A stretch of 42,374 nucleotides of DNA from a virus: positions 1 through 42,374 of IMG/VR virus record IMGVR_UViG_3300046529_001220; one strand, written 5' to 3'. The notes under the pieces were generated by a model. The model was not told the DNA's origin. It worked only from the letters and a program-made list of their open reading frames with translations, and made no database searches. The translations under genes were made by a program, and so were the position numbers. This document shows, piece after piece, positions 3,744 to 39,978 of the stretch. Numbering within the stretch: position 1 is the stretch's first letter; every line of letters starts with the position of its first letter.

Positions 3744-3745
3744 AT
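3732..3745 (+). promoter_or_regulatory. Class A promoter for 3751-4104
   Basis: GATTCACTATAAAT. TATAAA at 3739-3744 predicts +1 at 3751, exactly the A of the start codon. The TAA inside the motif is the stop codon of the upstream gene. Confidence 0.75.
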
Positions 3746-6192: not shown

Positions 6193-6199
6193 AAGATTA
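6193..6199 (-). promoter_or_regulatory. Class B promoter for 5803-6186
   Basis: Minus-strand TAATCTT followed by exactly six bases and ATG 6186. AATCTT would occupy -12 to -7. It lies back to back with the class A promoter at 6220-6233, forming a divergent pair. Confidence 0.7.
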
Positions 6200-7478: not shown

Positions 7479-7492
7479 GATTCACTATAAAT
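7479..7492 (+). promoter_or_regulatory. Class A promoter for 7498-7716
   Basis: GATTCACTATAAAT. TATAAA at 7486-7491 predicts +1 at 7498, the A of the start codon. Confidence 0.75.
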
Positions 7493-15637: not shown

Positions 15638-15667
15638 GCCCTAAACCCTTCGGGGTAATAGTGCCTG

Positions 15668-15700
15668 CCCCGCCAACCTCAGGTTGGCGGGGTTTTCTTT
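15668..15700 (+). terminator. Rho-independent terminator
   Basis: An 11-base-pair GC-rich stem (15668-15678 with 15682-15692), a three-base loop and a TTTTCTTT tract (15693-15700). It ends the 14933 unit just before the next class B promoter. Confidence 0.92.
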
Positions 15701-15710
15701 ATTGTGACGG

Positions 15711-15717
15711 CAATCTT
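15711..15717 (+). promoter_or_regulatory. Class B promoter for 15725-18253
   Basis: CAATCTT ten bases after the terminator. +1 is predicted at 15724, one base before ATG 15725. Confidence 0.75.
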
Positions 15718-15724
15718 GGTGTAG

Positions 15725-18253
15725 ATGGCTTCCGCGCCCGCGCCCCTCATCCCCAAGTCGCTTCTGCAGCTGGTCAATGAAAATGACCTTCCTCCGGCGC
15801 AACTGACGGATAAGCTATTCCCCCAGCAGGGGCCCATTTCCGGGCACAACTGGGCCAAGGCATTTCCGTTCCAGCTGATGGTCGTCGAGCCCAAGGGCGA
15901 CGGCACCTACACCCTTTTGCGTCCTTCCTCAGGGACAACCCAGACGGGCACCTGGCAGTTTACCCTGCCCATCCCTCCCGAGTCGATGAGCACCAACATG
16001 CCTTTCGCGGTGTCTACGTCCATTACCCAGGGCGGCTTCATCGAAGAGTGGAATGGTGCCCCCATTCGTATGATTAATCTCGCAGGCACGACTGGCGTTC
16101 TCTTTGGTCGCGACCTGGCCCCGCCCCTGCCTCCCATTTCTTTCGCTGAGTCAATTCTCGGTGGCACCATCAATGCCGCCAACAACACGGCCAACGCCTT
16201 CGGCGAACTCAGGAATGGCCGCACCTTCGACGTCCATACCGTCGACGAGGGCGACTTCGCCCCCAGCGGCGACCTGGAGAAGATGACCGGCTATTTCCAG
16301 TTTCGTTTGCTGCAGGCGTTTTTCGAAGCCTACGCAGAATTGAAGAAGACCCGCGAGGGGCGTCAAGCCCGTCTCGTTTTCTGCGCCTGGAAGTCGGAGT
16401 CTGTCTATCTCGTCACGCCGATGATGTTCGACGTCCGCCAGTCTGTGCCTGAGTCGATGGAATATCGGTACAACCTTTCCTTCAAAGCCCTTAAACGCGT
16501 CAGGCTCTCTCAAGGGCGCGCCGACATCGCGCTGACTTACACCCCTGTCCAGAGGGACCCGGGCAAACTGGCGAAGCTCCTGGACAAGGCAGAGAAGGCC
16601 AGGGCGGTGCTCCAGAACGCCAAGAAGACCATCCAGGCCATCGGAGGCGACGTTCAGCACACCCTATTTGACCCCCTGCGCGAGCTGACCTTGTTCGCTA
16701 AGGACGCTCTGGCCATCCCCCTCAGTGTCGCTGACCTCGCCGATAGCATCATCCAGGACTGCAAAGACGCTATTCTCGACCTGAAGTCCACCAAGAGTGA
16801 TGCAGCCGATTTCCCGACCAACATGCGAAACCGGCTGCATCAAGTCACCCAGAGCGTGCGCGATACCGACAACGACATCACCTCGCTTTCTGCAGAAATC
16901 AGCGATGACCCAGGGAACGGGCTGGTCCCCTCTTTTGACCCCAATAGTCGCGATGCACATCCCGCCAATAATCCTTTCAACAATCCCTCTGATGCGCAGG
17001 ACTTCTTCTCGAACATCAAGGTTGGCGACCTCAAGCTTTCTCCTCAGGTGACTGGGAAAATCGCTCAGGAGCGTGACCGGGTTCGCAAGCTGAACCGAAA
17101 CGACTTCCGCCAACGCCGCGATTCCATCGCTGCGACAGCAACTAACTACGCCAACGCCCTCGGAGTTGGTTCGGCTACGTTCAACCGCACCTACAATATC
17201 ACCCCTCCGACCTCGGTCCCTGTGGACCCTCCGACTGATGATGATTTCTCGGTCATGTATGCGCTCAATAACGTCATCATCGAGATGAATCGTCTCGTGG
17301 TGACCACCGACAATGAGCCGAATACCAAGCTCGACGCTATCGCGGCCATCGCCGGCATGGCAAGCCGCAGCGGCATCGCTTTCAGGATGCCTCGCTCGAA
17401 GTTCGCCGTTCCCTTCCAGTACGGCAACACCCTGGAAATGATGTCGGCCAAGTACCTCGGAACTCCGGACCGCTGGCATGAGATTGCTGCGTTGAACGGC
17501 CTGCAGTCGCCTTACGTCGATGAGCAGGGCTTCGCCCTCGCGCTTTTGACCAATGGTGGTGACAACGAAATCCTCGTGTCGGACGCGCTCCACCTGTTCG
17601 TGGGACAGCCTGTATTCCTCAGCTCGGACATCGTCACTCGCGAGCAGCGTAGAATCACCAAAATCGACCACCTAGCAATCGACCAGCATCTCATCACGGT
17701 GGACGGGGACCTTGACCTTGACCGATTCACGACGGCGGCGCACGCGCTGCTGGAGGCATTTTTGCCGAATACCGTGAATTCGCAGCAGGTAATTTATATC
17801 CCGAGCGACACGGAACCCAAGGACACCCACGACTTCAAGTCGTCCTCGGTCCCGGGCGTCAACTATTACGACACTCTCATCGCGGTCGGCGGCATCGACC
17901 TCCTGCTCACCCAAACGAACGACCTCATCATCACCCCCGACGGTGACACGAAATGGGCCGTGGGCCTGCAGAACATCGTGCAAAAAGTTCGCCTCGCACT
18001 AACGGTCCGCCAGGGCACGCTGCTGCATCACCCCGAGTACGGTCTCCCGCTCGCCGTTGGAACGTCCATTGCCGACCTTAGCGCCAGCGATATTGTGAAG
18101 GCTGCGACCGCCATGTTTGCTGGCGACCCGACGTTCAACGGGGTCACCGCAGCAAGCCTCAATATTACTGGTCCGACCGCCGCCCTTGGTTTGGCCGTCT
18201 CCGTCTCAGGTACCAGTCAGGTAATTCCAATCAGTGTATCAGTCCCTCACTAA
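15725..18253 (+). CDS. Baseplate wedge protein: LysM (gp53-like) fused to gp25-like domain
   Basis: 842 residues. The first 260 residues (AFPFQLMVVEP, WQFTLPIPPESM, GGFIEEWNGAPIRMINLAGTTG) look like the N-terminal domain of large-phage baseplate proteins. A long helical, acidic middle follows. A LysM-like module lies near residues 560-590 (GNTLEMMSAKYLGTPDRWHEIAALNGL), and a C-terminal gp25/GPW-like domain from about 720 (KWAVGLQNIVQKVRLALTVRQGTLLHHPEYGLPL). In T4, gp53 carries LysM and gp25 is separate; here both appear in one chain. It assembles the baseplate wedge around the tail hub. It is the first gene of the baseplate set and is leaderless by motif geometry. Confidence 0.8.
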   Translation: MASAPAPLIPKSLLQLVNENDLPPAQLTDKLFPQQGPISGHNWAKAFPFQLMVVEPKGDGTYTLLRPSSGTTQTGTWQFTLPIPPESMSTNMPFAVSTSITQGGFIEEWNGAPIRMINLAGTTGVLFGRDLAPPLPPISFAESILGGTINAANNTANAFGELRNGRTFDVHTVDEGDFAPSGDLEKMTGYFQFRLLQAFFEAYAELKKTREGRQARLVFCAWKSESVYLVTPMMFDVRQSVPESMEYRYNLSFKALKRVRLSQGRADIALTYTPVQRDPGKLAKLLDKAEKARAVLQNAKKTIQAIGGDVQHTLFDPLRELTLFAKDALAIPLSVADLADSIIQDCKDAILDLKSTKSDAADFPTNMRNRLHQVTQSVRDTDNDITSLSAEISDDPGNGLVPSFDPNSRDAHPANNPFNNPSDAQDFFSNIKVGDLKLSPQVTGKIAQERDRVRKLNRNDFRQRRDSIAATATNYANALGVGSATFNRTYNITPPTSVPVDPPTDDDFSVMYALNNVIIEMNRLVVTTDNEPNTKLDAIAAIAGMASRSGIAFRMPRSKFAVPFQYGNTLEMMSAKYLGTPDRWHEIAALNGLQSPYVDEQGFALALLTNGGDNEILVSDALHLFVGQPVFLSSDIVTREQRRITKIDHLAIDQHLITVDGDLDLDRFTTAAHALLEAFLPNTVNSQQVIYIPSDTEPKDTHDFKSSSVPGVNYYDTLIAVGGIDLLLTQTNDLIITPDGDTKWAVGLQNIVQKVRLALTVRQGTLLHHPEYGLPLAVGTSIADLSASDIVKAATAMFAGDPTFNGVTAASLNITGPTAALGLAVSVSGTSQVIPISVSVPH

Positions 18254-18262
18254 GTCGGCCAG

Positions 18263-18269
18263 CAATCTT
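18263..18269 (+). promoter_or_regulatory. Class B promoter for 18276-25004
   Basis: CAATCTT followed by exactly six bases and GTG 18276, the predicted +1. Confidence 0.78.
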
Positions 18270-18275
18270 GGGTAG

Positions 18276-21200
18276 GTGAGCGATACTCCTGCGCCCCGCA
18301 GCTTCCAGCAAATCCTTGGCGACCTAGTTGACGCCTTTCTGGCGGCCCAGGGGATTTCGAATATTCGGGTGGGTTCGCCCATCCTGAGCATTCTCGAAGC
18401 GACCGCACAGAGCGACCTCCGAAGCTCGCAGGATATTTTCGAGCTGCTGAACAGTATCTCCCTCGACCTGGCCGAAGGCCTGGCCCTGGAGCGCATCGGT
18501 AACGACGAGAATATCTCCAAGATTGAGGCCTCGGCCGCTACCGGCACGGTCACAATTTCGGACAGCAGCTTCACCAAGATTTTCAGCAAGCTGTCGGCCA
18601 CCACCCCCGCACCCATCGTCGGCTCGGTAGCCATCAACGTGGTTGACGCTTCGACCTGGCCGGCATCGGGGCAGGTCTACATCGGCCGCGGAACCCCCAA
18701 CTACGAAGGTCCCCTTGCCTACAGCAGCAAGGTCAATGCGGGCACCCATTGGACCCTGAACCTCTCCTCGGGAACGGTGAGGTTCCACAATACGTCAGAA
18801 ACGGCTATCCTGGCTCAGGGCGGTAACCGAGTCATCGCAGAAAAGACTCAGGTCAACACTCCGCAGGCGAATGTCTCCTCGGCCATCGTGTTCCGCACCC
18901 GCTACGCGCGAACCATCCCCGATGGCGAGACCGAAATTTTCAATGTCCAGGTCGTGGCAGTCAAGGAGGGTATCATCGGCAACGTGCCCGTGGGCGCCAT
19001 CACCGAGTTCCAGACCGCTCCGTTCAACGGCGCCACAGTCACCAATCCAACTCCGTTCTCCAACGGAACGGATACCGAAACGGATGACGACTTTCGCGAG
19101 CGCATCCGTAATGTGCGTCGTTCGCGAGCCCTGGGCACCGCCCTGGCCATCACGACCGCAACCATTGGTATTGTTGCCACGGACGAAAACAAACGCATCA
19201 GCTCGTCTACCTTGGTCAAGCGATTCGGCATTCCCAGCATTCTCTACATCGATGACGGTACCGGCTATGAAGAGCGCACCCAAGGGGTTGCAATTGAAAC
19301 CCTGACGGCTTCGGCTCTGGGTGGCGAGCCCTACTTCGAGACCGACCAGCGTCCCATCGCTCGCGCTTTTGCAATCACCTCAAACGTTGCCCCTTTCACC
19401 CTTGGGGTTGGCGCTCAACTTGCTGTGAGGACAGGCGGCGTGGACTACGTTCACCTGTTCGACCCGGCGGAGTTTCATTCCATCGTCAACGCCTCGGCTT
19501 TCGAAATTGTTGCTTCAATCAACAAAAACCCAGCCCTTGGGTTTCTGGCCCGCACCGCCAACGGCGGCGCCAATGTGGTCATCTTCTCGAAGTCTGAGAC
19601 CAACGAAGACATCGGAGTGGTAGCAGTCACTGACGGCCTGGACGCAAACGTAGCCCTTGGCTTCCCCATCGGTCAGAATTTCACGATGCAGTTGTACAAG
19701 AACGACCGCCTCTTGACCAAGGACGGCCAGGTCGCTGCATATTCTAGCCTCAGCTTCTCCGAATGGAATGCGGTCACGGGCAATCAGACCTTGATTGTCG
19801 CAGTGGATGGTACCGCAGCCGCCACCTACACATTCACTGACCAGGACTTCATCGACGCAGGTACGGGCTTCAACAGTCTCGCACGCAACACCCTCGCGGC
19901 TTGGGCGCTCGTGTTCAACTTCAAGGTTCCTGGCATTACGGCAGTCGAAAATGCTGGCAAGTTGATTCTTACGTCGAACCTAGGCACATCGTCGCGAGCC
20001 CGCGCCTCCATCACTGGCGGCACCCTCGTGACAGCACATTTCTTCTCCATCGGAGAAGTGCATGGTGCGCCGAACGACTACACACTGGACCGAAATGAAG
20101 CCCAAATCCATCTCGCGACTCCCCTGGTTTTGGGTGACCGCCTGACGGTCGGTTCGACCAACACTCGCGCTTTCATTCAATCGGATACCATCGGCACAAC
20201 TACCATTGCTGGAACGGCTAGGCTTTGGTTTGTGGTAGACGGTGACGCTCAAATCGTCAAGACGGGCGTCACGACTGCAACCACCATCACCATTTCTGTC
20301 GGTGCTCTCCACAACAGCGGTGCCCACGCCCTTATCAGCTCGGCCGGCACCCCATTCGCCAACGTGTTGGCAGGCGACTGGGTCATTATCTGGGACCCGT
20401 CCGTAGACGTATCCATGCAGGGCGCGTTCAGGGTTCTAGAATCAGGCCCTTCCATCATTCTCGTTGAACGCCGTCAGAGCGTAGGAGCGCGTATCGGTCA
20501 TCGCACCGTCGCGCTTCAAGCTTCTGGTTCGGACATTTGTCGAGTCCTGACTACCGGCGGTTCCTTGTCCTCCGGATTCTCCCCCACTGACACTTGTGAA
20601 ATTTACGACCCCAACATTCAAGCATCGTTCCCTGTTGCTTCTATGACCGTGCCTCGTGCGTACCACACTTGTACGCTACTTTCTGATGGCAAGGTCTTGG
20701 TGACTGGCGGCAAGGGCATTAACGGCAACCCCCTCGACTCTATCGAAATTTACGACCCGGTGGCAAACACATGGACTGCCAAGGCGAGCACGCTCCCTGA
20801 TACGGTATTTAATCATCAAGCAATTCTACTGGTAGACAACAGCGTGCTTATCTGTGGGGGCGACGACGGCAGCGGCGGTGTCACTACCATCAGAGACTAC
20901 GTTCCAGGTTCGGACACCTTCGTTGGCTTTGGCGCCATGGTTCACCCTCGCGGTAACCACAAAATCGTTTTGCTCCCCAGCAACAACGTACTTGTGGTCG
21001 GTGGATACAACGCGGTCCATGTGGACCAGCTGACCGCAGAAATCATTGACACGACACTGTTCACTTCCGCTCCGACCGGCAGCATGACCCGTGCTCGTTC
21101 GGGTTTCGGCTTGTCTCTTGTTGAAGCGGCTCCCACCAAGGTTCTTGCCGCAGGCAATCGCCTGGGAGCGACGGGCAAGGACACGTACGAGATTTACACC

Positions 21201-24200
21201 ATTGGTGCGGCGACTTGGGGTGCTGAAACCGCGCTGCCAAGCAACTGCGTGTTCGAGGACAAGGACCTTGTTCGAGTCGCAAACGGCAACGTATTTGGAT
21301 TCCATGGCTGGGACAGCACTCTCGCGTTGACCACGGGCAAGAATTTCAAGTACGATGGCACCACGTTCACCAGTTTTATCTCTGCTTCGGCACTGGACAC
21401 TACCGCTCGCTGGCAGGGCCAGTACGTTCATGTTGCCAATGGTACTGCGACCATCAAGAACCTGGTCGTTGCAATTGGTGGCTCAGTCAACTACAACAGC
21501 ACCTGGGGGTATGTTCCTTCGGCATTCATTGAAACCTACGATGCGGTCGGAGCAACCTGGTCTGCTCCAGAACCTGCAGCCGGGTTTGGCATCAACCTGA
21601 CTGGTGCTGGAATGGCATTCGTTCGCACCGACGGTCTCGTACACGAAATGGACGTGGCTCCTGCTGCCAACTACACGGCCAGCTCGATTGTCGGCGTGCT
21701 CAACACCGAATTGGTAGGGGCAAGCGCGGCTGTCTACAAGACCAACCAGCTGCGTGTTTCGACAAATTCGTTTGCTAAGACTGGCGACATCGCTCTCGTT
21801 GCTCAGAACAGCCTCGCTGGTGGAATTGCTCTAGATTCAACCAGCGCGATTGAAAATCTTACCGGCCATATCGGCTCGGTCGAATCAGGGAATAGTGAGC
21901 TGGGAACCCCCTCCTTCCAAGACATGTCTGTGCGCTCGCTCGGACGCGTTGCTGCCGGTATCGAACAACCCGTCCTGAATATTGCCAATGCCGAGGTCGA
22001 CCGTGCCCTCGTTGGACTCAGGAATCAGTGGCTTGGTAGCAATGGCTCGAACGCATTTGGTCCTCCTGCATTTTTCTATCCCCGTGCAGGGTCGAACTAT
22101 GGGTTTCGAACTCGCATCAAGAGTGCAGTTCTTACGGATACCTTGTCGAGGTTGGACGTTCGTTTGGCTCCTGGTGAACCCTGGACCCCGCTGGACCGTG
22201 TATATCTGGCAGCTCCCTACGCAATCGGTCCCAACGATGACTTTGCGGTCACGGCTGACAATGACATCGCCAAGCGCTTCCCTATCCAAATGTGGAGGAA
22301 GCTCAATACGGTCGGTTCGACCTATGCAACCACCAACACGTTCAAGGATGGTGGGGCAGCCGGGGTATCGCTCGCAGTCACCTTCGGCCTGAATTTCAAC
22401 TTCAATGACTTCGCGGTCTACATGGCTGCTCGTGCAGTGGCCTTTACGGTCGCTAACCAGAAGATGCTGTTCCGTTACTACCGCCTCGGAGCGGATGGCA
22501 ACGGTGCCCGTGTTCGCTTCGGCCATCCGACAGGGCCAAACAAACCCTGGACGGTAGTCTCTGTACAGAGCCCCGATGACCTGGTCACGGAAATCACCAT
22601 CCAGCTCAAGAGCGGCGCCCTGCGCACCATTTCCTCCATCAACAACACGACCCGGCTCGGCCAATCCATTACGGCAGTCGACGGCGGTGGTGTCATCACG
22701 ATGCAAGAGGTTTTGAACCTGATTGCTGGTTCGGCTTCTCGTACCACAAACGTCACGACCGTCACTCCAACCCTTCCCGCGGGAGTGACCGACCACGGCT
22801 TCTCGACCAGCGACAAGCTCTGGATTGCTTCGACCGACGTGAATTTCTCGTCCGGCTTGAAGACCATTACCCGCATCAGCGGTACCCAATTCAGCTACCC
22901 GGAAACAGCGGCCGATATCGGGCCGACCGCAAACATCGGTACCGTTTCATTCGACAACCTTGGTGAAGCAAGCTTCACTGGTTCGAGCGCCACGGTCGGC
23001 GACTTCATTCGGCTCAACACTATCGGTGGATACAACAAAACTGCCCGGGTAACGGCTGTGGCCGCTGGCGGGCAAGGTGTGACTGTTTCTCCGGGCGACA
23101 CGGCAGGCGGCGGAAGCCCATCAACCGTCATCACCTGGGCCCCCATCAACGTCCCCTCCAACCTGCAGCTTTTCATCAATCCCGCTGAGACAGCAGGGCA
23201 GGCGGCTGCAGCCATCAACGCGCTTGCTGCTCTCCCCAACCCGACCTGCCCCATCACCGCCACTCTCCTGGGCAACGGTACCGGTCTCGTCGACCGTTCG
23301 ACCGTCGACCTGGTGGACAACTTCCTCTTCTGGTATACGCTTACGGATGGCGTTAACTGGGTTGCTGAAACAACGCCCCCACTTACCATCGTGGGTGATT
23401 ATACCCTGACCTTCAAGAATCCCATCACCGGCAGCTTGTCCACGACTTCTGACTGGGTTGACGAGACGGTACACATTGCTCCTACTACCGCGCAGAACGT
23501 GGTGGACTGGCTGAATGCGCCCACGGTCTCGGGGCTCTTCACGGCGTGCTCCATCCAGACCTCAAACGACGGTAGGAATGTCCAAATCTCGTCCTTGACC
23601 CCGGGCGCCAACGGCGGAGTGCAGGTTCAGGGCGGCTTGGCCAACTCGGTCACTGCTGCGGTGGTCGGTGCCTCGGTATCTATTGCCGCAACAAAGTCTG
23701 TTTCGACCATCAAAACTACCGAATCAGTCGGCATCGGCAAGGGTATGTGGTGCCGAATCGACAACACTGACTCAACCCCCTCGTTCGACATTTTCAACGC
23801 AGGTATGAGTCTCGCTTCGTGGGACGCAGACGGCCTTGTTAGGATGTCAGCCCCCGTGATTAATGCGATTGTATCGCCCATAGCTGCAAAACTGCAATTC
23901 GAACGCCAGGGTGGCTTCATTGCCATCTCAGACATGGGTATCAACTCAAGCCTGGTGCTCACGACCGTGAAGCCGGGTTCGTTTGTTCGTATCACCCCGA
24001 CTGGCTCCCCGACCTTTGGATTCCCACAAGTATCTTCGGCAAACCAGGGCGTTTTCAAGGTCCTCCGTGTCGACCTGACAACCGGCCACGCCAACTCGGG
24101 TACGATTTACATCGAGAATGCTGCAGCCTTTGACGAGCGAGTCGAATGCACCATCGCAGTCTATGGCAAAAACTCAATTATGCCGGGCGATGGGTTCATT

Positions 24201-25004: not shown

Positions 25005-25010
25005 GCCTAG

Positions 25011-25017
25011 CAATCTT
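25011..25017 (+). promoter_or_regulatory. Class B promoter for 25024-27306
   Basis: CAATCTT followed by exactly six bases and GTG 25024, the predicted +1. Confidence 0.78.
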
Positions 25018-25023
25018 GAGTAG

Positions 25024-27306: not shown

Positions 27307-28937
27307 TGTCGTTCGTCGGATACTCAATAAATCAGCGCTCTTTCGGCGCCTGCCTCCTGTCGGATGGGCGCGTGCTCGCAACCGGGGGCTCCGATGGCGA
27401 CGACGGTACGGGTACGGCATCAAACGGCTGGGACCTGTTCTTTTTCAATGCGGGCTCCATCACCCAGAATCGGGGCACGCTTCCCGTGGCCCGCGCCGCT
27501 CATGGCCAATGTGCATCATTCAACGATGCTATCATCTCTGGTGGTTGGAACACTCCCGGCATCATGCTGGCGTCTACATCCAAATTCACCACTTCTACCA
27601 TGACCTGGTCGGCACTTGCTTCAATGAAGTATGCTCGCATGCATCATGAGTTGGTTCCCTTGTCCAGTTTGTTGAGCATTCTAGCAATCGGCGGGCAGAC
27701 CGCTGGTAAAACCCTGGCAACCTGCGAACGCTATGACCTCATCGGCGACTCATGGGCATTCACGGGCAGCATGGGCTTTGCCCGCGCCGGATTCTCAACC
27801 CAGGTTCTACCCGACGGACGCGTAATGGTTTTTGGCGGGAGGGGCTACAACCCCAGTCTGTCTTCTACCCCTGCTCCTCTGGACAGCACCGAAATTTACG
27901 ACCCCAGGTCGGGCATCTGGATTCCGGGCCCCAAGATGCGGGTGGCCCGTGACAATCCTGTCATCGGCTACCTGGCAAGCAGGAATGCAATCATCGTTTC
28001 TGGCGGAGGCCATCCCTCCATCGACCTGCTCGACCTCAAGACGTTTAAATGGAAGACAGTTAACGCTCCCCTCGCTACCGCGCATACCCAGTCTGTTGGT
28101 GGCATCGCCTCGGATGATACGTTCCTGGTATCCGGTGGCTTGAACGTCAATGCGACCGAGAAGAAAAACTACGTAACCATCCCGGGCTCAGACATCACGT
28201 ATCTGGGCGCAGGCATCAACGAAATTGTTACCGTCGACACCACTCCCAACGGCACGCATCTCACCGCGAAGACACGCAAGTACGACTACAGCGGCACATG
28301 GACCCAAGCCGCTGCGGGAGCATTGGTTACTCCAATGGGTGCCGGACCTGCTACTCCTGGAGTTCCCGGGCCCTTCACCTACGACCTGGCCGCTGGACTG
28401 CCAGTGACTTCCGTTGGTGCGATTATCGCTCAGGACCTCAACGGCGGCCAGCACTACACGTCGCTGGTCCTGGACACCGGCACCGACCCCAATCCGGCGC
28501 TCGCCTTTCCGGACGAGGTTGGCTACCTGGTGTTCGACTTCGGCTTCAAGGACCAAACGGGCCCTGTGAAGTATTTGGGACGCTTGTCTGACACGGAGCT
28601 GTTGCTCGACGTCGGATTCAAATTCCCGACCGACCTCGTCATTGGCGCGAGCGTTATTTTGCTCTCCGGTCGCGCTCCGTGGCAGCCACCACGTGGGCAC
28701 CACCCAGGCAATTTCTACGCGACTGGCTCGGCAGCAGGCCACGTGGCAGCTGAAGCAGCCCTGGACGACACCGTTGCGGCTGGTGTGAATACCAATGTTG
28801 AGGTGGTTTACCCAGGAGACCGTGGACTTGGAGGCGAGGGTTTGCCTGCTTCTGGAACCAATAAATTGTCTGACAAAATCAGTGTTTGGGGTGGCGACGA
28901 CCTGGATGTGGAACTTTCGAAGGCGCGGCAATCTTAA
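27306..28937 (+). CDS. Kelch-repeat tail protein
   Basis: 543 residues from ATG 27306, which overlaps the upstream TAA (TAATG); an in-frame GTG at 27294 is not needed. Residues 10-300 form about six kelch blades (FGACLLSDGRVLATGGSDG, GFSTQVLPDGRVMVFGGRG, STEIYDPRSGIWIPGPKM, NAIIVSGGGHPSIDLLDL), i.e. a beta-propeller. The C-terminal 240 residues differ (DLNGGQHYTSLVLDTGTD, LVFDFGFKDQTGPVKYLG) and may attach it to the baseplate. It resembles the propeller inserted in the J-type protein and may derive from it by duplication. A host-surface or protein-binding role is likely. Confidence 0.72.
   Translation: MSFVGYSINQRSFGACLLSDGRVLATGGSDGDDGTGTASNGWDLFFFNAGSITQNRGTLPVARAAHGQCASFNDAIISGGWNTPGIMLASTSKFTTSTMTWSALASMKYARMHHELVPLSSLLSILAIGGQTAGKTLATCERYDLIGDSWAFTGSMGFARAGFSTQVLPDGRVMVFGGRGYNPSLSSTPAPLDSTEIYDPRSGIWIPGPKMRVARDNPVIGYLASRNAIIVSGGGHPSIDLLDLKTFKWKTVNAPLATAHTQSVGGIASDDTFLVSGGLNVNATEKKNYVTIPGSDITYLGAGINEIVTVDTTPNGTHLTAKTRKYDYSGTWTQAAAGALVTPMGAGPATPGVPGPFTYDLAAGLPVTSVGAIIAQDLNGGQHYTSLVLDTGTDPNPALAFPDEVGYLVFDFGFKDQTGPVKYLGRLSDTELLLDVGFKFPTDLVIGASVILLSGRAPWQPPRGHHPGNFYATGSAAGHVAAEAALDDTVAAGVNTNVEVVYPGDRGLGGEGLPASGTNKLSDKISVWGGDDLDVELSKARQS
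28929..28935 (+). promoter_or_regulatory. Class B promoter for 28942-29703
   Basis: CAATCTT whose last T begins the upstream stop TAA; then exactly six bases and ATG 28942, the predicted +1. Confidence 0.78.
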
Positions 28938-28941
28938 GGTC

Positions 28942-29703: not shown

Positions 29704-29705
29704 CA

Positions 29706-29712
29706 CAATCTT
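29706..29712 (+). promoter_or_regulatory. Class B promoter for 29719-30381
   Basis: CAATCTT followed by exactly six bases and ATG 29719, the predicted +1. Confidence 0.78.
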
Positions 29713-29718
29713 GATGGT

Positions 29719-30381: not shown

Positions 30382-30384
30382 TTC

Positions 30385-30801
30385 ATGCGTTCGCTAATTC
30401 TCAATGGCGCGAAGGTCCGCCTCTACGTGAACGGTCAGCCGTTCGCCCGAGTGACGGACTTTTCGTACAATATCGAAACTCCTCTCCGGGCTCTTTACGG
30501 CATTGAGAGCATGGAGGCCTTCGAGCTGGCTCCGACCATCGGTCGGGTGACCGGTTCGATGAACCTGCTCAAGCTCCAGAATGACGGCGGCACGGAAGGT
30601 GTGGGGATTACGGTGCCATTTGCGCTCTTGGCTCGCGCCCTTTATTTCTCCATAGCGCTTGTAGAAATTCAGACTGGAAACGTTATATTTGAAGCTCGCC
30701 AATGTTCAGCAACCAGCCAGAGATGGGGAGTAGCCACTAGGTCGTTTATCAGTGGTCAGGTGTCCTTCGAAGCCCTGAATTGGACAGGCGAAGTACGCTA
30801 A
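30385..30801 (+). CDS. Probable small structural protein (tail-tube-like fold)
   Basis: 138 residues. The pattern of strands and helix (AKVRLYVNGQPFARVTDFSYNIETP, LYGIESMEAFELAPT, VTGSMNLLKL, FEARQCSATSQRWGVATRSF, ISGQVSFEALNW) resembles phage tail-tube or tail-completion beta-sandwich proteins. It has no class B motif directly upstream and starts three bases after the previous stop, so it is probably read through from 29706. The precise role (tube, completion, or baseplate plug) is not determined. Confidence 0.55.
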   Translation: MRSLILNGAKVRLYVNGQPFARVTDFSYNIETPLRALYGIESMEAFELAPTIGRVTGSMNLLKLQNDGGTEGVGITVPFALLARALYFSIALVEIQTGNVIFEARQCSATSQRWGVATRSFISGQVSFEALNWTGEVR

Positions 30802-30845
30802 CGCTGTAGATAATATCCACATTAGCGGGTCGATGTCCCGAACCC

Positions 30846-30852
30846 TAATCTT
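30846..30852 (+). promoter_or_regulatory. Class B promoter for 30859-31332
   Basis: TAATCTT followed by exactly six bases and ATG 30859, the predicted +1. It may once have driven the structural gene now at 31332. Confidence 0.68.
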
Positions 30853-30858
30853 CAATGC

Positions 30859-31332
30859 ATGAACAGTTTTCTCGTTACATGCGGACTGAGGAAATGTACA
30901 AAGTGTGGTGAAGTAAAGTCTGAAGAAGATGACTTCAGTTTCAGAGACAAATCCACAAGGACCAGGGTTGCTGTTTGTCGTGCTTGTGTAAATACTGCAT
31001 CCCAAAAATGGTACCAAAACAATAAAGAACGATGTGCAGCCAGGGCGCGAATCCCTGGAAGTAGTGCGAGAAAATGGAAGACAAAAAAGAGGGACCAGAA
31101 CAAAATTCTCTTGGTCCAACTCAAATCTGTACCATGTTTCGACTGCAAGGTTTCTTATCCTCCATGGGTCATGCAGTTCGACCACCGGGATGCACAATTG
31201 AAGAAAGATAACCTAGCAACAATGGCACATAACGGAAAACCCACGGAAGCAATCTTGGAGGAAGCGAGTAAATGCGACGTGGTATGCGCTAACTGTCACA
31301 TGGAAAGAACACACCGACGGAGGAGTGAGTAA
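30859..31332 (+). CDS. HNH endonuclease (homing type)
   Basis: 157 residues. The N-terminal part has a zinc pair CTKCGEVKSEEDDF and CRAC, as in other phage HNH enzymes with a Cys4 finger. The nuclease core is PCFDCKVSYPPWVMQFDHRD with KCDVVCANCHMERTH, close to the enzyme at 6924-7229. It is strongly AT-rich beside GC-rich structural genes, indicating recent arrival. It sits between two tail genes, its stop overlaps ATG 31332, and it contains a class B motif that could serve the next gene. Confidence 0.88.
   Translation: MNSFLVTCGLRKCTKCGEVKSEEDDFSFRDKSTRTRVAVCRACVNTASQKWYQNNKERCAARARIPGSSARKWKTKKRDQNKILLVQLKSVPCFDCKVSYPPWVMQFDHRDAQLKKDNLATMAHNGKPTEAILEEASKCDVVCANCHMERTHRRRSE
31250..31256 (+). 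promoter_or_regulatory. Class B motif inside the HNH gene, possibly driving 31332
   Basis: CAATCTT predicts +1 at about 31263, giving a 69-base leader ending in GGAGGAG before ATG 31332, the same layout as 14860/14933. It could also be chance. Confidence 0.45.
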
Positions 31333-33116: not shown

Positions 33117-33133
33117 ACGTGAATCCCTACTAA
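33108..33133 (+). repeat. Tandem CCCTACTAA repeat upstream of 33135
   Basis: CCCTACTAA occurs at 33108-33116 (end of the upstream gene) and again at 33125-33133, a 17-base period ending one base before ATG 33135. It may be a small duplication of a gene end or an initiation signal. Confidence 0.45.
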
Positions 33134-33134
33134 C

Positions 33135-34046
33135 ATGATTATCGGCGCAGGCATCGACGCATCCATCTTCGGCACCGGGCTATCGGGTGACTACACTGTC
33201 ACTAGTGGTACAAACATCATTGAGAACGGGGGCGACAAGTACGCCAAGACCATCAGCTGGGCCAAGGTCAGCGGCGGTGACCCCGACTTCACAGTATGGG
33301 GTACGGGTCAAAGGTATTTTGCAACCAGGAAGATACTGATTGGTTCGGGAGTAACTCTTTTTGGTAAGCACCATGGCAGCCCAGGACCCGACCAGAGTGT
33401 GGGTTTTGTTGGAACCACAATCGGTGGTAACACGGGCAACGGCGGTACGGGAGCGGGCGGGGCCAACAATGGGTCACCGGGATTGGGTGGTGCTGGTATG
33501 GGTGGCAACGGCGGAGCGGGTGGCGCAGCCAACCCCCACACTGGGGGCGCAGGAGGGGTTATTAACAACTCACCACTGAAAGCCGCCAATGTTTCTCTCC
33601 AAGCGTTTCTAACTGGTCACGCACTGTTGGCCGGAAGCCAGGTTGCCATTCTGGGTGGGGCTAGCGGGGGCGGGGGCGGTTCCGAAGCGGGAGGGGCCGG
33701 CGGCGATGGCGGCGCTGGAGCTGGAGCTATCATCATGGCCGCTCCCATCATCCAAATCGATGGCATCGTAGACATGCGTGGTTGGGCTGGGGGAAATGCG
33801 CCCGGTGGTGGTATCAGTGGCGGGGGCGGGGGCGGGGGCGGGGGGCTCCTAATCCTAATTTGCGGTCAACTGATTCTGAACGGCACCATCAACATGAACG
33901 GTGGCGATGGTGGGGCTGGTTTCGGAGGCGTGGACGGTCACGGTGGGGTTGGAGGAGCAGGCGGCCAATACTTCGTGTTCAGCGGTGATTGGGAGAACTT
34001 GGTTCGTGTAATTGGCAGCACAGGAGCAACAGGAGCAAGTGGATAA
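33135..34046 (+). CDS. Glycine-rich adhesin-like tail protein
   Basis: 303 residues. The first 95 residues are a beta domain. From about residue 95 there are three Gly-rich blocks (such as GGNTGNGGTGAGGANNG, GGASGGGGGSEAGGAGG and GGGGGGGGG) broken by short hydrophobic strands (AIIMAAPIIQIDGIVDMRG, LLILICGQLILNGTINMNGG), ending in collagen-like GSTGATGASG. Such Gly runs form polyglycine-II sandwiches in the gp38 adhesins of T-even-type phages. It is probably a receptor-binding tip or fibre protein. No Shine-Dalgarno or class B motif is seen; the stop overlaps the next ATG. Confidence 0.62.
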   Translation: MIIGAGIDASIFGTGLSGDYTVTSGTNIIENGGDKYAKTISWAKVSGGDPDFTVWGTGQRYFATRKILIGSGVTLFGKHHGSPGPDQSVGFVGTTIGGNTGNGGTGAGGANNGSPGLGGAGMGGNGGAGGAANPHTGGAGGVINNSPLKAANVSLQAFLTGHALLAGSQVAILGGASGGGGGSEAGGAGGDGGAGAGAIIMAAPIIQIDGIVDMRGWAGGNAPGGGISGGGGGGGGGLLILICGQLILNGTINMNGGDGGAGFGGVDGHGGVGGAGGQYFVFSGDWENLVRVIGSTGATGASG

Positions 34047-34531
34047 TGGAAGCAACTGACCTCGCCCGCAAGACCGAAGAAATCGCAGCCCGCGACGTGG
34101 GCCAGCGAGAGAACCCGTCTAATCGGGGCCCTCGCATCGACCAGTACCAAGCGTACACGTCCATCGTCCTGGGTAGCGCGTACTGCGCATCGGCATGCTC
34201 TTTGTGGGTACATGAAGCAGCCATCGAGCTGAGCATCATTCCCCAATTCCAGAAGTCCGGCTCGGCTCTACATCTCTGGGCGAACAACCCCGACCTGCAA
34301 TTCACGACTCTGACCCCGGCCGACCTGCCCTGCGTCGGCATCAACGAACATGACGACCACATTCACGGTCACGCATTTCTCATTGTCGGGATGGATGAAG
34401 CGACCGGACAGCTTCAGACTATCGACCCCAACAGTGACCCCCATGGGAGCCGCGAGGGAACCGGCGTCTGGCAGCTCAACGTTCGCAACACCGCCGACGC
34501 CCAGCGCAAAGGCTACCTGAGGATTCAGTAA
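34046..34531 (+). CDS. CHAP-like peptidoglycan endopeptidase
   Basis: 161 residues from ATG 34046 (TAATG). The layout matches small phage amidase/endopeptidases: NRGPRIDQYQAYTS, a catalytic Cys region AYCASACSLWVHEA, a catalytic His in HGHAFLIVGMDE and a closing DPHGSREGTGVWQLNVR. The usual WCAAFV around the Cys is AYCASAC here, and the usual EGN motif before the Gly-Ser-Arg-Glu-Gly is DPN. It probably cuts cell-wall peptide bonds, either as endolysin or as a tail-associated lysin, given its place among tail genes. There is no signal peptide. Confidence 0.72.
   Translation: MEATDLARKTEEIAARDVGQRENPSNRGPRIDQYQAYTSIVLGSAYCASACSLWVHEAAIELSIIPQFQKSGSALHLWANNPDLQFTTLTPADLPCVGINEHDDHIHGHAFLIVGMDEATGQLQTIDPNSDPHGSREGTGVWQLNVRNTADAQRKGYLRIQ
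34518..34523 (+). promoter_or_regulatory. Ribosome-binding site TGAGGA supporting an ATT start
   Basis: TGAGGA ends seven bases before ATT 34531, the spacing expected for an initiation codon, and no ATG, GTG or TTG lies in that position in the open frame. Confidence 0.5.
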
Positions 34532-34875
34532 TTAAAGCAAAAATCACCCGCCTGGGAGAGACCATCGAGCTGGAGGGCACGGCCGAAGAGCTGGAGCGCT
34601 TCATCAAGCCGGCTGCTCCTTCCATCAGTATCCAGACCGCACCGTACATTCCAGGGCAGACCATCGTACCCCTGCCTTGGATTCCGTGCCCCATCGACAT
34701 CCAGCCGTTCATCATCACGAACCCCGCCATCCAGCCGTGTGCCCACGAGTACCCCAGCCCTTGGTTCGGGACCGTGCCGCCGTCCTGTCAGAAATGTGGA
34801 GCGTCCGAAGGACTCTTCTTCGGTCAGAACATCACCCAGATTCTCTGCACGAACAACTCGGGGCTGCTTCAATAA
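34531..34875 (+). CDS. Small zinc-ribbon protein with ATT start codon
   Basis: 114 residues in the frame 34531-34875. The only start consistent with the local layout is ATT, overlapping the stop of the peptidase gene (TAATT, mirroring the TAATG junctions elsewhere) and preceded by TGAGGA. The first residues (KAKITRLGETIELEGTAEELERFI) look like a complete phage-protein N-terminus, so the frame does not begin later. The C-terminal half has Pro-rich strands and a Cys/His cluster (CAHEY, CQKCG). ATT initiation is known for a few auto-regulated genes such as infC. The function is unknown. Confidence 0.6.
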   Translation: MKAKITRLGETIELEGTAEELERFIKPAAPSISIQTAPYIPGQTIVPLPWIPCPIDIQPFIITNPAIQPCAHEYPSPWFGTVPPSCQKCGASEGLFFGQNITQILCTNNSGLLQ

Positions 34876-34885
34876 TTCAAGCAGC
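34863..34885 (+). terminator. Stem-loop over the stop codon (possible terminator)
   Basis: GCTGCTT (34863-34869) pairs with AAGCAGC (34879-34885) around a nine-base loop containing TAA. No T tract follows, so termination is uncertain; it lies two bases before a class B promoter. Confidence 0.4.
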
Positions 34886-34886
34886 A

Positions 34887-34893
34887 CAATCTT
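34887..34893 (+). promoter_or_regulatory. Class B promoter for 34903-35634
   Basis: CAATCTT with nine bases to ATG 34903; +1 is predicted at 34900, leaving a three-base leader. Confidence 0.7.
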
Positions 34894-34902
34894 AGGGATA
34901 CG

Positions 34903-35634
34903 ATGAGCACGATTACCGGCAGCGATGGCGATACAACTGGAGTGGGGGCAGCTGTTCCAACAGCTCCTGTTGTGAACGCGTCCTTGGAGACGATGCCGGC
35001 AAATACCGTCAAAGGCAGTTTGACGGGTTCTGGCGCTCCAGTGGACCTGACGGCCGTTCAATTTACATCAATAGTGAATCTAGCAACCACATCCCTTCAG
35101 GGGGCTATGGCCGCTACAGACAAAGTAAAATTGAACGAACTCTCCCCAACCCTCAGCACGACTATTGTAGGTACTGATGCCACTTCCATCTCGGTTGATG
35201 TATCAGCCTACGGCGACGGTCTGTACGAAGTCGAGTTTGTAGGCACAGGCCATACCAGCTCGGGACCTGAGCTTCTTTGGCAGGCCAACGGTGCGGGTCT
35301 AACTAGTCCAAATGGCGTATACCTTCAAGCTCCGGCCGGGGTTTTGTCTGATAACGTTGAGACTGTTGGGATGTTTTTCAACAACATCTTCGTCAATAAT
35401 GCCGATACCACTCTCAGGGTTTGGGGTACCTTCAGCTCGCGCAATAATAAGCTCAGCGGATATGATTCGACGGGCTTTGGTAAGGCTGGGGCAACCGTTG
35501 GTTCTGTCATGATTGGGGGATACCATACCCCCGCAGCGGTTCTCACCAGTATCGGGTTGCTTGCTACCAATTTCGATGCTACAGACCGCATCAAGGTCGG
35601 TTCAGTTCTTCGTGTCAGAAAAATCGGTTCATAA
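34903..35634 (+). CDS. Tail fibre-associated structural protein
   Basis: 243 residues. The segment ANTVKGSLTGSGAPVDLTAVQF followed by LQGAMAATDKVKLNEL near residues 33-80 is the linker motif common to tail fibres, joining an N-terminal attachment part to a beta-sandwich head (ISVDVSAYGDGLYEVEFVGTG, LRVWGTFSSRNNKLSGYDS, VGSVLRVRKIGS). It lies directly before the long fibre gene and may be its partner or cap. Exact role unknown. Confidence 0.62.
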   Translation: MSTITGSDGDTTGVGAAVPTAPVVNASLETMPANTVKGSLTGSGAPVDLTAVQFTSIVNLATTSLQGAMAATDKVKLNELSPTLSTTIVGTDATSISVDVSAYGDGLYEVEFVGTGHTSSGPELLWQANGAGLTSPNGVYLQAPAGVLSDNVETVGMFFNNIFVNNADTTLRVWGTFSSRNNKLSGYDSTGFGKAGATVGSVMIGGYHTPAAVLTSIGLLATNFDATDRIKVGSVLRVRKIGS

Positions 35635-35647
35635 CCCTCTTTAGGGT
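35634..35647 (+). other. Small stem-loop after the gene end
   Basis: ACCCT (35634-35638) pairs with AGGGT (35643-35647) around a four-base loop, just after the stop codon and before the next class B motif. It may protect or process the 3' end. Confidence 0.35.
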
Positions 35648-35652
35648 AGAAA

Positions 35653-35659
35653 CAATCTT
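35653..35659 (+). promoter_or_regulatory. Class B promoter for 35666-39619
   Basis: CAATCTT followed by exactly six bases and GTG 35666, the predicted +1. Confidence 0.78.
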
Positions 35660-35665
35660 ACAGAC

Positions 35666-38600
35666 GTGGCTACTACAAACGACATCGCTAACGCCCTTGC
35701 GCTATCGAAGCGCCTGAGTACCCAGGCCGGTGCTTATGCTGCCAAAGCACAGCAATATGCTGTCCAGGCACAAACGCTCGCCAATCAGGCCATTCGTCTT
35801 CAAACTTCTTGGAAGGGGACCTGGAATTCTGGTACACAGTATCAGACCAATGACATGGTTGCAGACGGAGGGGCAAGCTACATAGCCCTCAATCCGAGCA
35901 TCAACATTGAACCGCCAAGCCCAAGCCACTGGGGAGTAGTAGCTGAAGCCGGAAGTGGCGCGGTTCATAGTTCCGGTGGACTGGAAGGGGACGGCTCTAT
36001 TGGAGACCCGGTAGTTATTTCCACGGGAGGTGTCAGCTATAGCAGCATTCAGAATGTAAGCGCGACCGATAAGGTACTCGGTCGCTCGACCGCTGGCGCA
36101 GGAGCCATAGAAGAAATTCCAATGACGGCTGCGGGACGAGCCTTGGCTGCTGGTGCCAATGCCGCAGCTCAAAGAACGTCTTTGGGGCTTTCTTCTATCG
36201 CAGCGTCGGGCTCTGCTTCAGACCTTGCTTCTGGAACACTCAATATAGCACGCATTGCCGATGCGTCGATACCTCATACGAAATTTTCTGATTTCCCATT
36301 CCTCGGCTACGCCCTGCAATATACCTCCCCTACTGGCAACAACGCCAACAATGGGACGAAGGAGTTCCCCAAGAAAACGGCCAGCGCTGCCTACGCTGCT
36401 CTTTCCAGCTTCGGCGGAACCATCAAAGTTACCACGGGTGTCAAATGGTCCGATGGTACCGAGGGACTTGGGCTCACCGACAACCAGGGCATGCGCATCA
36501 ATGGCTGGTGGGCTCAGATTGGCCACAGCCAAGCTGGCTGGCTCGGTGCCAAGAATTTCAAGCTTGCTGGTTACGGGCTGGATGTCGCCGACGGCTTTGG
36601 TTCGTCCACTGTACGGCTGTCTTGGGGCGTGAATGACGGCAACCGGGTAGACCCCTCGTTTTGGGCCGTGGGGTTGAACGGCGGATATACGCTAGAGAAT
36701 GTCTCCTTCGAGAGCCATCTCCCCGCCCGCATCGGTTGGGACTACCGCCGAAACGACTCCAACGGTTCCATTGCACTTGCCAATATTACCCACGCTGCGC
36801 GGACCACCGCAAGCCGCTCTGTCACCCATGTCGCTGGTGACGGGGTTGTCCTGGGTACGGGTATTTGGACCTTTGAAGACGGCGCATTCACCGACGCTGA
36901 CGTAAACGGCGTTATCGTAGTGGCCGGAGCTGCCAACCCCGGGAACGATGGCACCTTCTCAATTGCTCAGGTTCTCAGCTCCACCACCATCCTGACACCA
37001 AATGTGGGGCTGGCGACGGAATCCTTCGGTAGCGGCGTTACTTGCACCGTTCGCCAGATTCCGAAGACGGTCTTCACTGTCGATTACCCCGCCGCTTGGC
37101 AGCTCATCTCCCTGCAACGTACGGGCGACGTCACCACTGCCATCGTCAACAATACCAACCGAGTTTCGGAATATCCCCAGATTCACAACGGGACCTTCCT
37201 TCACTTGGTCACGTCGGCCGTAGGCTTCACCACGGGCGATTACGTAGCCACCAACTTCGGGTTGATTGGTGATGACACCACGTGGGCCTTCAACTTCACT
37301 GACCCGGGCGTTGACACTGGCTTGGTCAGCGCGACGGGCAGCACCCTCGCGGGACACGCGGTATTGCCCCGCGACATCATCGAAATTCAATCCACAAACG
37401 ACGAATGGCAGTCGACGATGTATTTCGTCACGGCCACCACGGCCACGACCATCACGGTCGAAGACCGCACGGGCCAGTATGGGACCCGGAGCCTTAACGT
37501 TTCCGCCGACAACATCGGCCAGTATGTTTTGCAAGACCGCCAGCTCGATAAGGGCGTTTGTCTCGACTATTACGACCGTTGCACCTTCGCTTCGCTCGGA
37601 ATTGAAGGCGCGGAAAATGGTCAGTGTGGTCCGTCTATGGACCGCGGCGGTACGACCGCCGGGGGCTGGTCCTACATCAATGACGGCTCCTTCTTCGGCG
37701 GGCAAATCGACCTCTTGGTTGACCCCAACCGAACCGCTGCTATTTTCACCTCAGGCGGTGTCAGCCACGCGGGCGGATTCCAAGCCGTGAACTGTCGTAC
37801 AGGCGCCGGCAACGTTCGCTTCGACGGGAATGTGTCGGGCGGCCTCGCCCTCGAATTCGTCAACAGTGACTCCAGTCATCGCCCACTCTTGGAGCTTCTC
37901 CCCGGTCAGTCCGGAGCGCACGACCTGCGCGTCAAGAGTTGCTCTGTCGCCGACGTCACGCTAGTTCCTGCTGTCGACCTCGGCGGGGTCGCTGTCTTCG
38001 GCACCATCAAAAATACCAAGGGGATTATCAACGCGTCGGGATTTCAGAAGCCCCTCGTGCTTGGTGAGATTGGTCAGTGGTCCAGCGAGCCGAATACATT
38101 CGAGGCAACCAACAAGCTCGGATGGTATGGCCAGGACGGTACCCTTGCGGGCAAGCGGAGCGACGTACAATCCCAGTTTGGCACCGTCGCTGGGCTTGGG
38201 CTGGAGAACTGCCTCCCGCAGGACCTGACGCTTTGGACCTCCACAGGCGTCACTGTCACAGCGGGTGCTAAAGCCCCGAACGGCACCAACAACGCTTTCC
38301 GTCTCACTGGCACGGGCACACTTGCCGTAGGCCAGCAGGTTGCTTACAAAGACTTCACTTCAGACGTAGGACCCGTCTCCGCTGGAGACGCCTATGTCTT
38401 CGGGGCCTGGATTAAGGGCGTCAACGGTAGTCAGCTGTTGCCCCCCGGCGGAAACCTCGTTTCGCTTTCGTCTTACTCACTTGGCGTGCCGCTGAACCCC
38501 GGGGCGCCTCCCCCAATTGCTGGCGATGGTCAGTGGCAGTGGGTTACCTCAATCGGCATCGCGCCAGTGGCCGCCAACGGTGAACCCTCCCTCACCTTTT

Positions 38601-39619
38601 ATTTCAACGTTGGTGGGGCTGGCATGGACGTCTTCCAACCGACGCTTATTCGCCTGCTGAAGACGGAATACACCAAAAACGAAGCGTACAGGATTCACAA
38701 TATCTTCCAGGCTCAGCAGAACGATATTCCCAAGGGCGACGTTACTACCCTCCCAGGCGCCAAGCTGATTGGTACCGCTGGCCTTGGCACTGGCGCTTAC
38801 CGGACCGTGGGCGTTTCTGACGGGCAAATCACCCTCGGTTCCGCTACGGGCGAGGCTATCGAATTCTTCGGAACCGATGGGCACACGCGCGGCGTGATTG
38901 CTCTCCAAGCATACACCATCAACGGGACCTTGACGGCACCACCCAAGACGGGGCTTCAACTCTGGCTGGATGCTGCAGTAGGCGTCACGATGGTGTCCAC
39001 CAAGGTCAGCAAGTGGGCAGACCAAAGCGGTAACGGATTCGACGTCCACCAGGACACGGACGCAAACCGCCCCACGGTAACTGCCAGCTCGGTCAACAGC
39101 CTCCCCGGCATCCACTTCCCCGGAGTGAGCACTGGCATCAGTCTCGACAACTTCACCGACAATATCATGCGGCTCGGGAAAGCCAGGTCCGTCTATGCTG
39201 TCGTCAAGGCAGGGGAGGATTCAAGCTACGTAATTATCGATTTCCGTCGGTCGCCGTTCGCCCTGGCGTTGACTGCAGGCTTTGGAGCAAATGTCATCAA
39301 CTCCGACGGCGCGGCCAACATCAGCACCACTGACGGAATCCCAATCACCAATGCCACACCTACGCTGGCTGAGTGGTACTCAGCTGGTTCGCCTGGGTTC
39401 GCCTTCTCGTTCTTCACCAATGGAACAGCAAGGGCTCTCGATGCTTCAGCACTGACCAAGCCCGACAATGGTGCCACCGGATTCAGTGTTGGCAGCGACT
39501 TCTCTGCCACCTACACCTTCAAGGGCGACATCTGCGAAATCCTCGTCTATGACGCCGACCTCGGGCCCATCGAGGTCGCCCAAGTCCGGGCTTACCTCAA
39601 TAATAAGTACGGACTGTAA
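35666..39619 (+). CDS. Tail fibre/spike with CBM5/12-like, beta-helix, jelly-roll and LamG-like modules
   Basis: 1317 residues. Order seen: helical N-terminus (1-48, SKRLSTQAGAYAAKAQQYA); CBM5/12-like module at 49-97 (WKGTWNSGTQYQTNDMV ending HWGVV); fibre linker 130-205 (ATDKVLGRSTAGAG, AAQRTSLGLSSIA); right-handed beta-helix region from about 212 (YTSPTGNNANNGTKEFPKK to about 830); jelly-roll, carbohydrate-binding-type domain at about 840-1000; LamG-like domain at about 1092-1317 (LQLWLDAAVGVTMVSTKVSKW to YLNNKYGL). This is a receptor-binding protein, with the helix domain a possible polysaccharide depolymerase; no active-site residues could be fixed. The C-terminal module is shared with 25024-27306. 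Confidence 0.82.
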   Translation: MATTNDIANALALSKRLSTQAGAYAAKAQQYAVQAQTLANQAIRLQTSWKGTWNSGTQYQTNDMVADGGASYIALNPSINIEPPSPSHWGVVAEAGSGAVHSSGGLEGDGSIGDPVVISTGGVSYSSIQNVSATDKVLGRSTAGAGAIEEIPMTAAGRALAAGANAAAQRTSLGLSSIAASGSASDLASGTLNIARIADASIPHTKFSDFPFLGYALQYTSPTGNNANNGTKEFPKKTASAAYAALSSFGGTIKVTTGVKWSDGTEGLGLTDNQGMRINGWWAQIGHSQAGWLGAKNFKLAGYGLDVADGFGSSTVRLSWGVNDGNRVDPSFWAVGLNGGYTLENVSFESHLPARIGWDYRRNDSNGSIALANITHAARTTASRSVTHVAGDGVVLGTGIWTFEDGAFTDADVNGVIVVAGAANPGNDGTFSIAQVLSSTTILTPNVGLATESFGSGVTCTVRQIPKTVFTVDYPAAWQLISLQRTGDVTTAIVNNTNRVSEYPQIHNGTFLHLVTSAVGFTTGDYVATNFGLIGDDTTWAFNFTDPGVDTGLVSATGSTLAGHAVLPRDIIEIQSTNDEWQSTMYFVTATTATTITVEDRTGQYGTRSLNVSADNIGQYVLQDRQLDKGVCLDYYDRCTFASLGIEGAENGQCGPSMDRGGTTAGGWSYINDGSFFGGQIDLLVDPNRTAAIFTSGGVSHAGGFQAVNCRTGAGNVRFDGNVSGGLALEFVNSDSSHRPLLELLPGQSGAHDLRVKSCSVADVTLVPAVDLGGVAVFGTIKNTKGIINASGFQKPLVLGEIGQWSSEPNTFEATNKLGWYGQDGTLAGKRSDVQSQFGTVAGLGLENCLPQDLTLWTSTGVTVTAGAKAPNGTNNAFRLTGTGTLAVGQQVAYKDFTSDVGPVSAGDAYVFGAWIKGVNGSQLLPPGGNLVSLSSYSLGVPLNPGAPPPIAGDGQWQWVTSIGIAPVAANGEPSLTFYFNVGGAGMDVFQPTLIRLLKTEYTKNEAYRIHNIFQAQQNDIPKGDVTTLPGAKLIGTAGLGTGAYRTVGVSDGQITLGSATGEAIEFFGTDGHTRGVIALQAYTINGTLTAPPKTGLQLWLDAAVGVTMVSTKVSKWADQSGNGFDVHQDTDANRPTVTASSVNSLPGIHFPGVSTGISLDNFTDNIMRLGKARSVYAVVKAGEDSSYVIIDFRRSPFALALTAGFGANVINSDGAANISTTDGIPITNATPTLAEWYSAGSPGFAFSFFTNGTARALDASALTKPDNGATGFSVGSDFSATYTFKGDICEILVYDADLGPIEVAQVRAYLNNKYGL

Positions 39620-39626
39620 CCAGCAC

Positions 39627-39633
39627 CAATCTT
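39627..39633 (+). promoter_or_regulatory. Class B promoter for 39640-39978
   Basis: CAATCTT followed by exactly six bases and ATG 39640, the predicted +1. Confidence 0.78.
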
Positions 39634-39639
39634 ATAGCC

Positions 39640-39978
39640 ATGCCATCGATTGCCGTACAAGAAGCCTTCGTCGCCATCAGCGCTGCTACTGCAGACGGAG
39701 TACTGACTGTCGCCTCGAATGCCTACCTCTTCCCGGGTGCGCTTGCCTGGCTTTGTCTAGACACTGCTACCGAGACCTCGGCGCGCATGCGGGTGAAAAT
39801 CCTCGCTTGCATCAGTACGGACACGGTCCATGTTCGTCCCTTCGTGAACAACAACGAAAACGCACCCCCTCAGTACGGTCTCGGTGACGTGAGCGCATTC
39901 AACGGCGCTTCGCACATCTGCCAAGAGGCTCAGACGGCCCCCATCGACCCCGCCTACTCGAAGCGCGTCGTTCCCTAA
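39640..39978 (+). CDS. Small late protein, probable virion component
   Basis: 112 residues; leaderless by motif geometry. It is beta-rich (DGVLTVASNAYLFPGALAWLCLD, ARMRVKILACISTDTVHVRPFV) with an ending CQEAQTAPIDPAYSKRVVP. The fold resembles small capsid-decoration or fibre-cap proteins in general pattern only. It is the last + strand gene of the structural block and meets the convergent gene 39975-40238 at its stop codon. No family is recognised. Confidence 0.6.
   Translation: MPSIAVQEAFVAISAATADGVLTVASNAYLFPGALAWLCLDTATETSARMRVKILACISTDTVHVRPFVNNNENAPPQYGLGDVSAFNGASHICQEAQTAPIDPAYSKRVVP

Follow-up and report, generated by a model that had tools for sequence, protein, structure and literature searches.

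In the window analysed here (the whole 42,374-nt stretch of IMG/VR virus record IMGVR_UViG_3300046529_001220), the heptamer CAATCTT stands at a set distance ahead of the start codons of structural genes. Judged from its sequence context, it is most probably the −10 element of a late-type phage promoter that lacks a −35, is read by a truncated phage sigma factor and, in this phage, gives rise to leaderless mRNAs; the label ‘late’ is taken from gene content. In the mechanism that we propose, the host RNA polymerase would work with a sigma-70 homolog of the phage that retains regions 2–3 and stops before region 4.2, and would melt the DNA at CAATCTT, with six bases between the hexamer AATCTT and +1. 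In this phage, +1 would be the first base of the ATG or GTG, and translation would proceed by recognition of this 5′-terminal start codon without a Shine–Dalgarno sequence; in relatives, the same promoter would be followed by longer leaders containing one.

The two strands of the window together contain 22 copies of AATCTT, and 9 of these precede an ATG or GTG by exactly six bases (starts 18276, 25024, 28942, 29719, 30859, 35666 and 39640 on the plus strand, 6186 and 40361 on the minus strand). The initial annotation, made from the letters alone, had listed these nine along with a copy seven bases before 15725 and one nine bases before 34903, and all are where it placed them. A further gap-nine copy that it listed, before 7243, was dropped as a gene start, as it opens a frame of only 15 codons. 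The start at 40361 was kept as a weak case, with a 34-codon frame that possibly encodes a small membrane peptide. Start codon 28942 is backed independently: residue 13 of its papain-like protein aligns to position 13 of a PHROG profile. The AATCTT sites (class B) and the terminator next to 15712 are:

15667..15700, plus strand: hairpin of 12 bp followed by TTTTCTTT, a terminator (T tract), with its end some 12 nt upstream of the 15712 element
15712..15717, plus strand: class B −10 AATCTT, 7 nt before ATG 15725, 842-aa baseplate/tail-tube-initiator protein
18264..18269, plus strand: class B −10, N6, GTG 18276, 2242-aa baseplate J-like protein
25012..25017, plus strand: class B −10, N6, GTG 25024, 760-aa structural protein
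28930..28935, plus strand: class B −10, N6, ATG 28942, papain-family peptidase
29707..29712, plus strand: class B −10, N6, ATG 29719, 220 aa
30847..30852, plus strand: class B −10, N6, ATG 30859, 157 aa
34888..34893, plus strand: class B −10, 9 nt before ATG 34903, 243 aa
35654..35659, plus strand: class B −10, N6, GTG 35666, 1317 aa
39628..39633, plus strand: class B −10, N6, ATG 39640, 112 aa
6193..6198, minus strand: class B −10, N6, ATG 6186, 127 aa
40368..40373, minus strand: class B −10, N6, GTG 40361, 34-codon frame, weak

The fixed spacing that the initial annotation claimed lies well beyond chance. Dinucleotide shuffles contain AATCTT-N6-RTG (R, A or G) 0.44 times on average and three times at most (300 shuffles), and no AATCTT-N6-start was found in the 37–50 kb searched of each of four unrelated phages, lambda, Mu, Mx4 and Mx8. 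All 4096 hexamers were also scanned blindly at each of 25 gaps ahead of RTG (102,400 hexamer/gap combinations), and AATCTT at gap 6 ranked second among the outstanding independent signals (9/22, binomial 5.6e-9; about 6e-4 when corrected for all combinations). First came TATAAA at the same gap (7/10, 2e-9), and the overlapping CTATAA at gap 7 was also among the top signals. A literature search, whose scope left out most subscription journals, found no report of an AATCTT element; among the titles listed for AATCTT (20 of 1,693), all were unrelated.

TATAAA six bases ahead of RTG marks a second promoter class (GATTCRCTATAAATA, class A), and the genes that it serves are non-structural:

3739..3744, plus strand: class A −10 TATAAA, N6, ATG 3751, 117 aa
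6227..6232, plus strand: class A −10 TATAAA, N6, GTG 6239, 89 aa; divergent from the class B element at 6198
7486..7491, plus strand: class A −10 TATAAA, N6, ATG 7498, 72 aa
8885..8890, plus strand: class A −10 TATAAA, N6, ATG 8897, 203 aa
12979..12984, plus strand: class A −10 TATAAA, N6, ATG 12991, 58 aa
40245..40250, minus strand: class A −10 TATAAA, N6, ATG 40238, 87 aa

This second class (ATTCRCTATAAR) would also be −10-only, and it shares its register with class B. In the related contig G002, TATAAG-N6-RTG is the leading hexamer/gap signal (13/30, 3e-12); CGCTATAAG-N6-RTG occurs there 13 times, and a −35 is not visible there either. At gap 6, the window and G002 both have only ATG or GTG codons, never TTG. 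The shared register bears on whether AATCTT is instead an unorthodox ribosome-binding site, as its position (−12 to −7) matches that of a Shine–Dalgarno sequence and its gap is rigid within the window. Leaderless promoters predict two different −10-like hexamers in the one register, which one unusual ribosome site would not. Moreover, the cluster-internal genes 27294 and 30385 have no element, nor do their homologs in any relative, and other genes of the window use GGAG-type sites.

The relatives speak to the same question. The window is a 42-kb fragment of a larger genome whose gene content points to a contractile-tailed phage, and its nearest named relative is Myxococcus phage Mx1 (OR576727), with 38% identity in the baseplate protein and 44% in the 31332 protein. 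Relatives of the 31332 protein are also encoded in five IMG/VR contigs (43–70% GC) and one contig of a metagenome-assembled genome; the 842-aa protein had no match in a scan of viral contigs. CAATCTT is held ahead of homologous structural genes in relatives of 42–70% GC (Mx1 and IMG/VR contigs). Among 7-mers upstream of greedily called genes, it ranks first in the window and in the 70%-GC contig G001 and second to CTATAAG in G002 (where CAATCTT counts 8 upstream and 0 in coding), and it is enriched upstream of genes in Mx1. Candidate sites in Mx1 precede 16 plus-strand genes, mostly structural, and 3 on the minus strand (Fisher 5e-6), an approximate strand count built partly on greedy gene calls. 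Contig G006 (42% GC) has AATCTT-N6-ATG before a 442-codon frame.

Across all contigs, the distance from element to start has a sharp floor at 6 (2/50 below) and extends to 37. For homologs of 15725 the gap is 7 in the window, 14 in G002 and 6 in both G001 and Mx1; for those of 18276 it is 6, 37, 25 and 36 in the window, G002, G001 and Mx1, respectively; and for 25024 it is 6 in the window versus 10 in Mx1. The 31332 homologs of Mx1, G001, G002 and G004 are headed directly by the element, 19–23 nt upstream. In the window, the 157-aa gene at 30859, in leaderless position, is inserted between the promoter and 31332, which retains its own GGAGGAG; this gene (30859–31332) looks mobile, with relatives elsewhere in Mx1 (by the tRNAs) and in G002.

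Leader length and Shine–Dalgarno sequences change together. Leaders of at least 14 nt pair strongly with the anti-Shine–Dalgarno sequence (median −6.15 kcal/mol, P = 8e-6 versus random positions) and contain a Shine–Dalgarno sequence, whereas sites at gap 6–7 usually have none (leadered versus leaderless sites, P = 7e-4). Pairing at gap 6–7 is weak: class B sites of the window average −1.5 kcal/mol versus −2.5 at random positions, which bears out the initial annotation's statement that the spacers have no Shine–Dalgarno sequence, except at 6186, which scores −7.7. An element kept at a variable gap, with Shine–Dalgarno sequences only in long leaders, argues strongly against a role in ribosome binding and fits a −10 element that sets +1 six bases further on. 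With homologous genes having the element 14–37 nt upstream and, mostly, a real Shine–Dalgarno sequence in between, we give a ribosome-binding role hardly any credence. Since long leaders are frequent in the relatives, the element is not a signal specific to leaderless genes but a promoter whose position makes the mRNAs leaderless in this phage.

Fixed-distance 5′ ends would also be expected if AATCTT were an RNA-processing signal and an endonuclease cut six bases downstream to leave leaderless ends. We regard this as very unlikely: the register is shared with the TATAAA class, and a terminator lies between the previous gene and the 15712 element. As terminator 15667..15700 stands directly upstream of that element, the 15725 mRNA needs its own start downstream of it. 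A hairpin upstream of AATCTT, frequent by eye, was rejected as a common part of the site, as folding z-scores average −0.2.

The promoter itself appears to be confined to the −10 region. A logo of 43 aligned sites, chosen with the hexamer fixed and so describing the bases around it, shows clear conservation only between about −6 and the hexamer, with a purine at −5 and C at −1; the base preceding the hexamer is C in 33 of the 43 sites and T in 9. CAATCTA variants occur. For the −35 element, no motif was found at −60 to −7 in the 43 sites, and a flexible (gapped) −35 search did no better than shuffles.

A candidate reader is found in the relatives. Mx1 has an annotated putative sigma factor gene near the terminase, and its product (WNM70309) and homologs in contigs G005 and G006, about 335 aa in length, match SigA/RpoD (E 6e-9) from region 2 as far as the beginning of region 4. 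They align through regions 2–3 into region 4.1, and all three end inside region 4.1 and lack region 4.2, which binds the −35. The initial annotation had proposed a phage-specific sigma factor or polymerase, and it is the sigma half of that proposal that found a counterpart, in Mx1 and two relatives, none being encoded on the window. A phage-encoded RNA polymerase as the reader would suit an element unlike the host −10, and most Mx1 genes are unannotated. A search whose controls worked found no Rpb2-type match in Mx1 or the contigs, and a single-subunit search was also empty, though with its control silent; we consider such a polymerase most improbable. Sigma region-4 matches in G001, G002 and G003 were below the cut-off and disregarded, as was one in Mx1 (47437–47493) that lies inside an annotated HNH endonuclease; a structure predicted for the G005 sigma from its sequence alone (pLDDT 41) was set aside.

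The reader could also be a host alternative sigma or the main host sigma acting on an extended −10, given that the window has no sigma gene and that AATCTT shares with a normal −10 its A at position 2 and its T at position 6. Identical CAATCTT in phages of 42–70% GC, hence probably of different hosts, speaks against a host factor, and phage sigma homologs without region 4.2 fit the missing −35; we judge a host sigma unlikely.

Four observations weigh against a leaderless promoter read by a truncated phage sigma. Nothing on the 42-kb window matches the truncated sigma, so that the link rests on relatives; a fragment of a larger genome could easily lack one. Contig G005, with a 42%-identical sigma, has no AATCTT enrichment and only CAATCTA before one gene. 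The gap-6 excess in Mx1 taken alone is modest (7 observed versus 2.3 expected, P = 0.008), and purines are only mildly preferred at the predicted +1 of leadered sites (15/23). On the other side, the initial annotation's proposal of promoters that leave the mRNAs leaderless is supported by the gap floor, the register common to TATAAA, the loss of Shine–Dalgarno sequences only at gap 6–7, the longer leaders behind the same element in relatives and the strong terminator that immediately precedes the promoter of 15725.

Further features of the window are a Thg1-like tRNA-His guanylyltransferase gene at 4145–4858 (PF04446, 4e-31) and, just ahead of the structural cluster, a tyrosine integrase-family gene at 13906–14841 (PF00589). 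In Mx1, the annotated prohead protease start has AATCTT-N6-ATG just inside it (L018:13002–13025), and this leaderless ATG, at 13023, may be the real start codon. The top fixed-gap signal of Mx1 is AGATCA about 16–18 nt before RTG (12/54), mostly on minus-strand genes (L018, L019, L020, L006) and frequently in the context AGATCAACGC-N-GTA; it is possibly an early promoter or leader signal.

More broadly, we lean towards the view that a lineage other than that of T4 evolved a −10-only late system with a 4.2-less sigma and a new hexamer, in which some members have two classes in one register and most first genes leaderless, and relatives have Shine–Dalgarno leaders. One promoter with leaders of 0 to about 30 nt over homologous genes forms a natural series, which opens leaderless versus Shine–Dalgarno initiation to gene-by-gene study. 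The sigma would be an apparently independent case without a −35 reader, made tractable by the culturable phage Mx1, and the motif can help to annotate gene starts and operons of the Mx1-related group, a little-studied family.

In T4, late transcription uses gp55 with gp33 and the clamp gp45, and late mRNAs have Shine–Dalgarno leaders, unlike the class B mRNAs of the window, which are predicted to be leaderless. T4 late promoters have a −10-like element only, with the −35 unconserved, and gp55, a small sigma-70 homolog, reads it through region 2 (PMC2988020, PMC7892883). Class B is likewise −10-only by the logo and gapped search, and the Mx1, G005 and G006 sigmas lack region 4.2; the differences are CAATCTT versus the T4 TATA box and a sigma of about 335 aa versus the very small gp55. 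The TATA box is resembled by class A TATAAATA, but class A serves non-structural genes.

Leaderless genes of Deinococcus-Thermus and Actinobacteria have TANNNT some 12 nt ahead of the gene, with +1 at the start codon (PMC12340547, PMC3160421), and those of mycobacteria use only RTG starts (PMC4633059). The window shares an element six bases before the start, no Shine–Dalgarno sequence and RTG-only starts, but AATCTT is carried by a phage and differs from the consensus of the housekeeping sigma; TANNNT is unmatched by class B, without the first T, and by class A TATAAA/G, without the final T. Among Thermus phages, the middle and late mRNAs of phiYS40 are described as mostly leaderless (PMC3594737) and the middle and late promoters of P23-45 as of the extended −10 class (PMC7403470); the sources consulted report neither an AATCTT element nor a truncated phage sigma for them. 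Promoters are not described in the Mx1 genome paper (PMC10720576). Mx1 shares with the window homologous structural genes and CAATCTT and has the truncated sigma gene, and it differs in that most of its sites have leaders with Shine–Dalgarno sequences.
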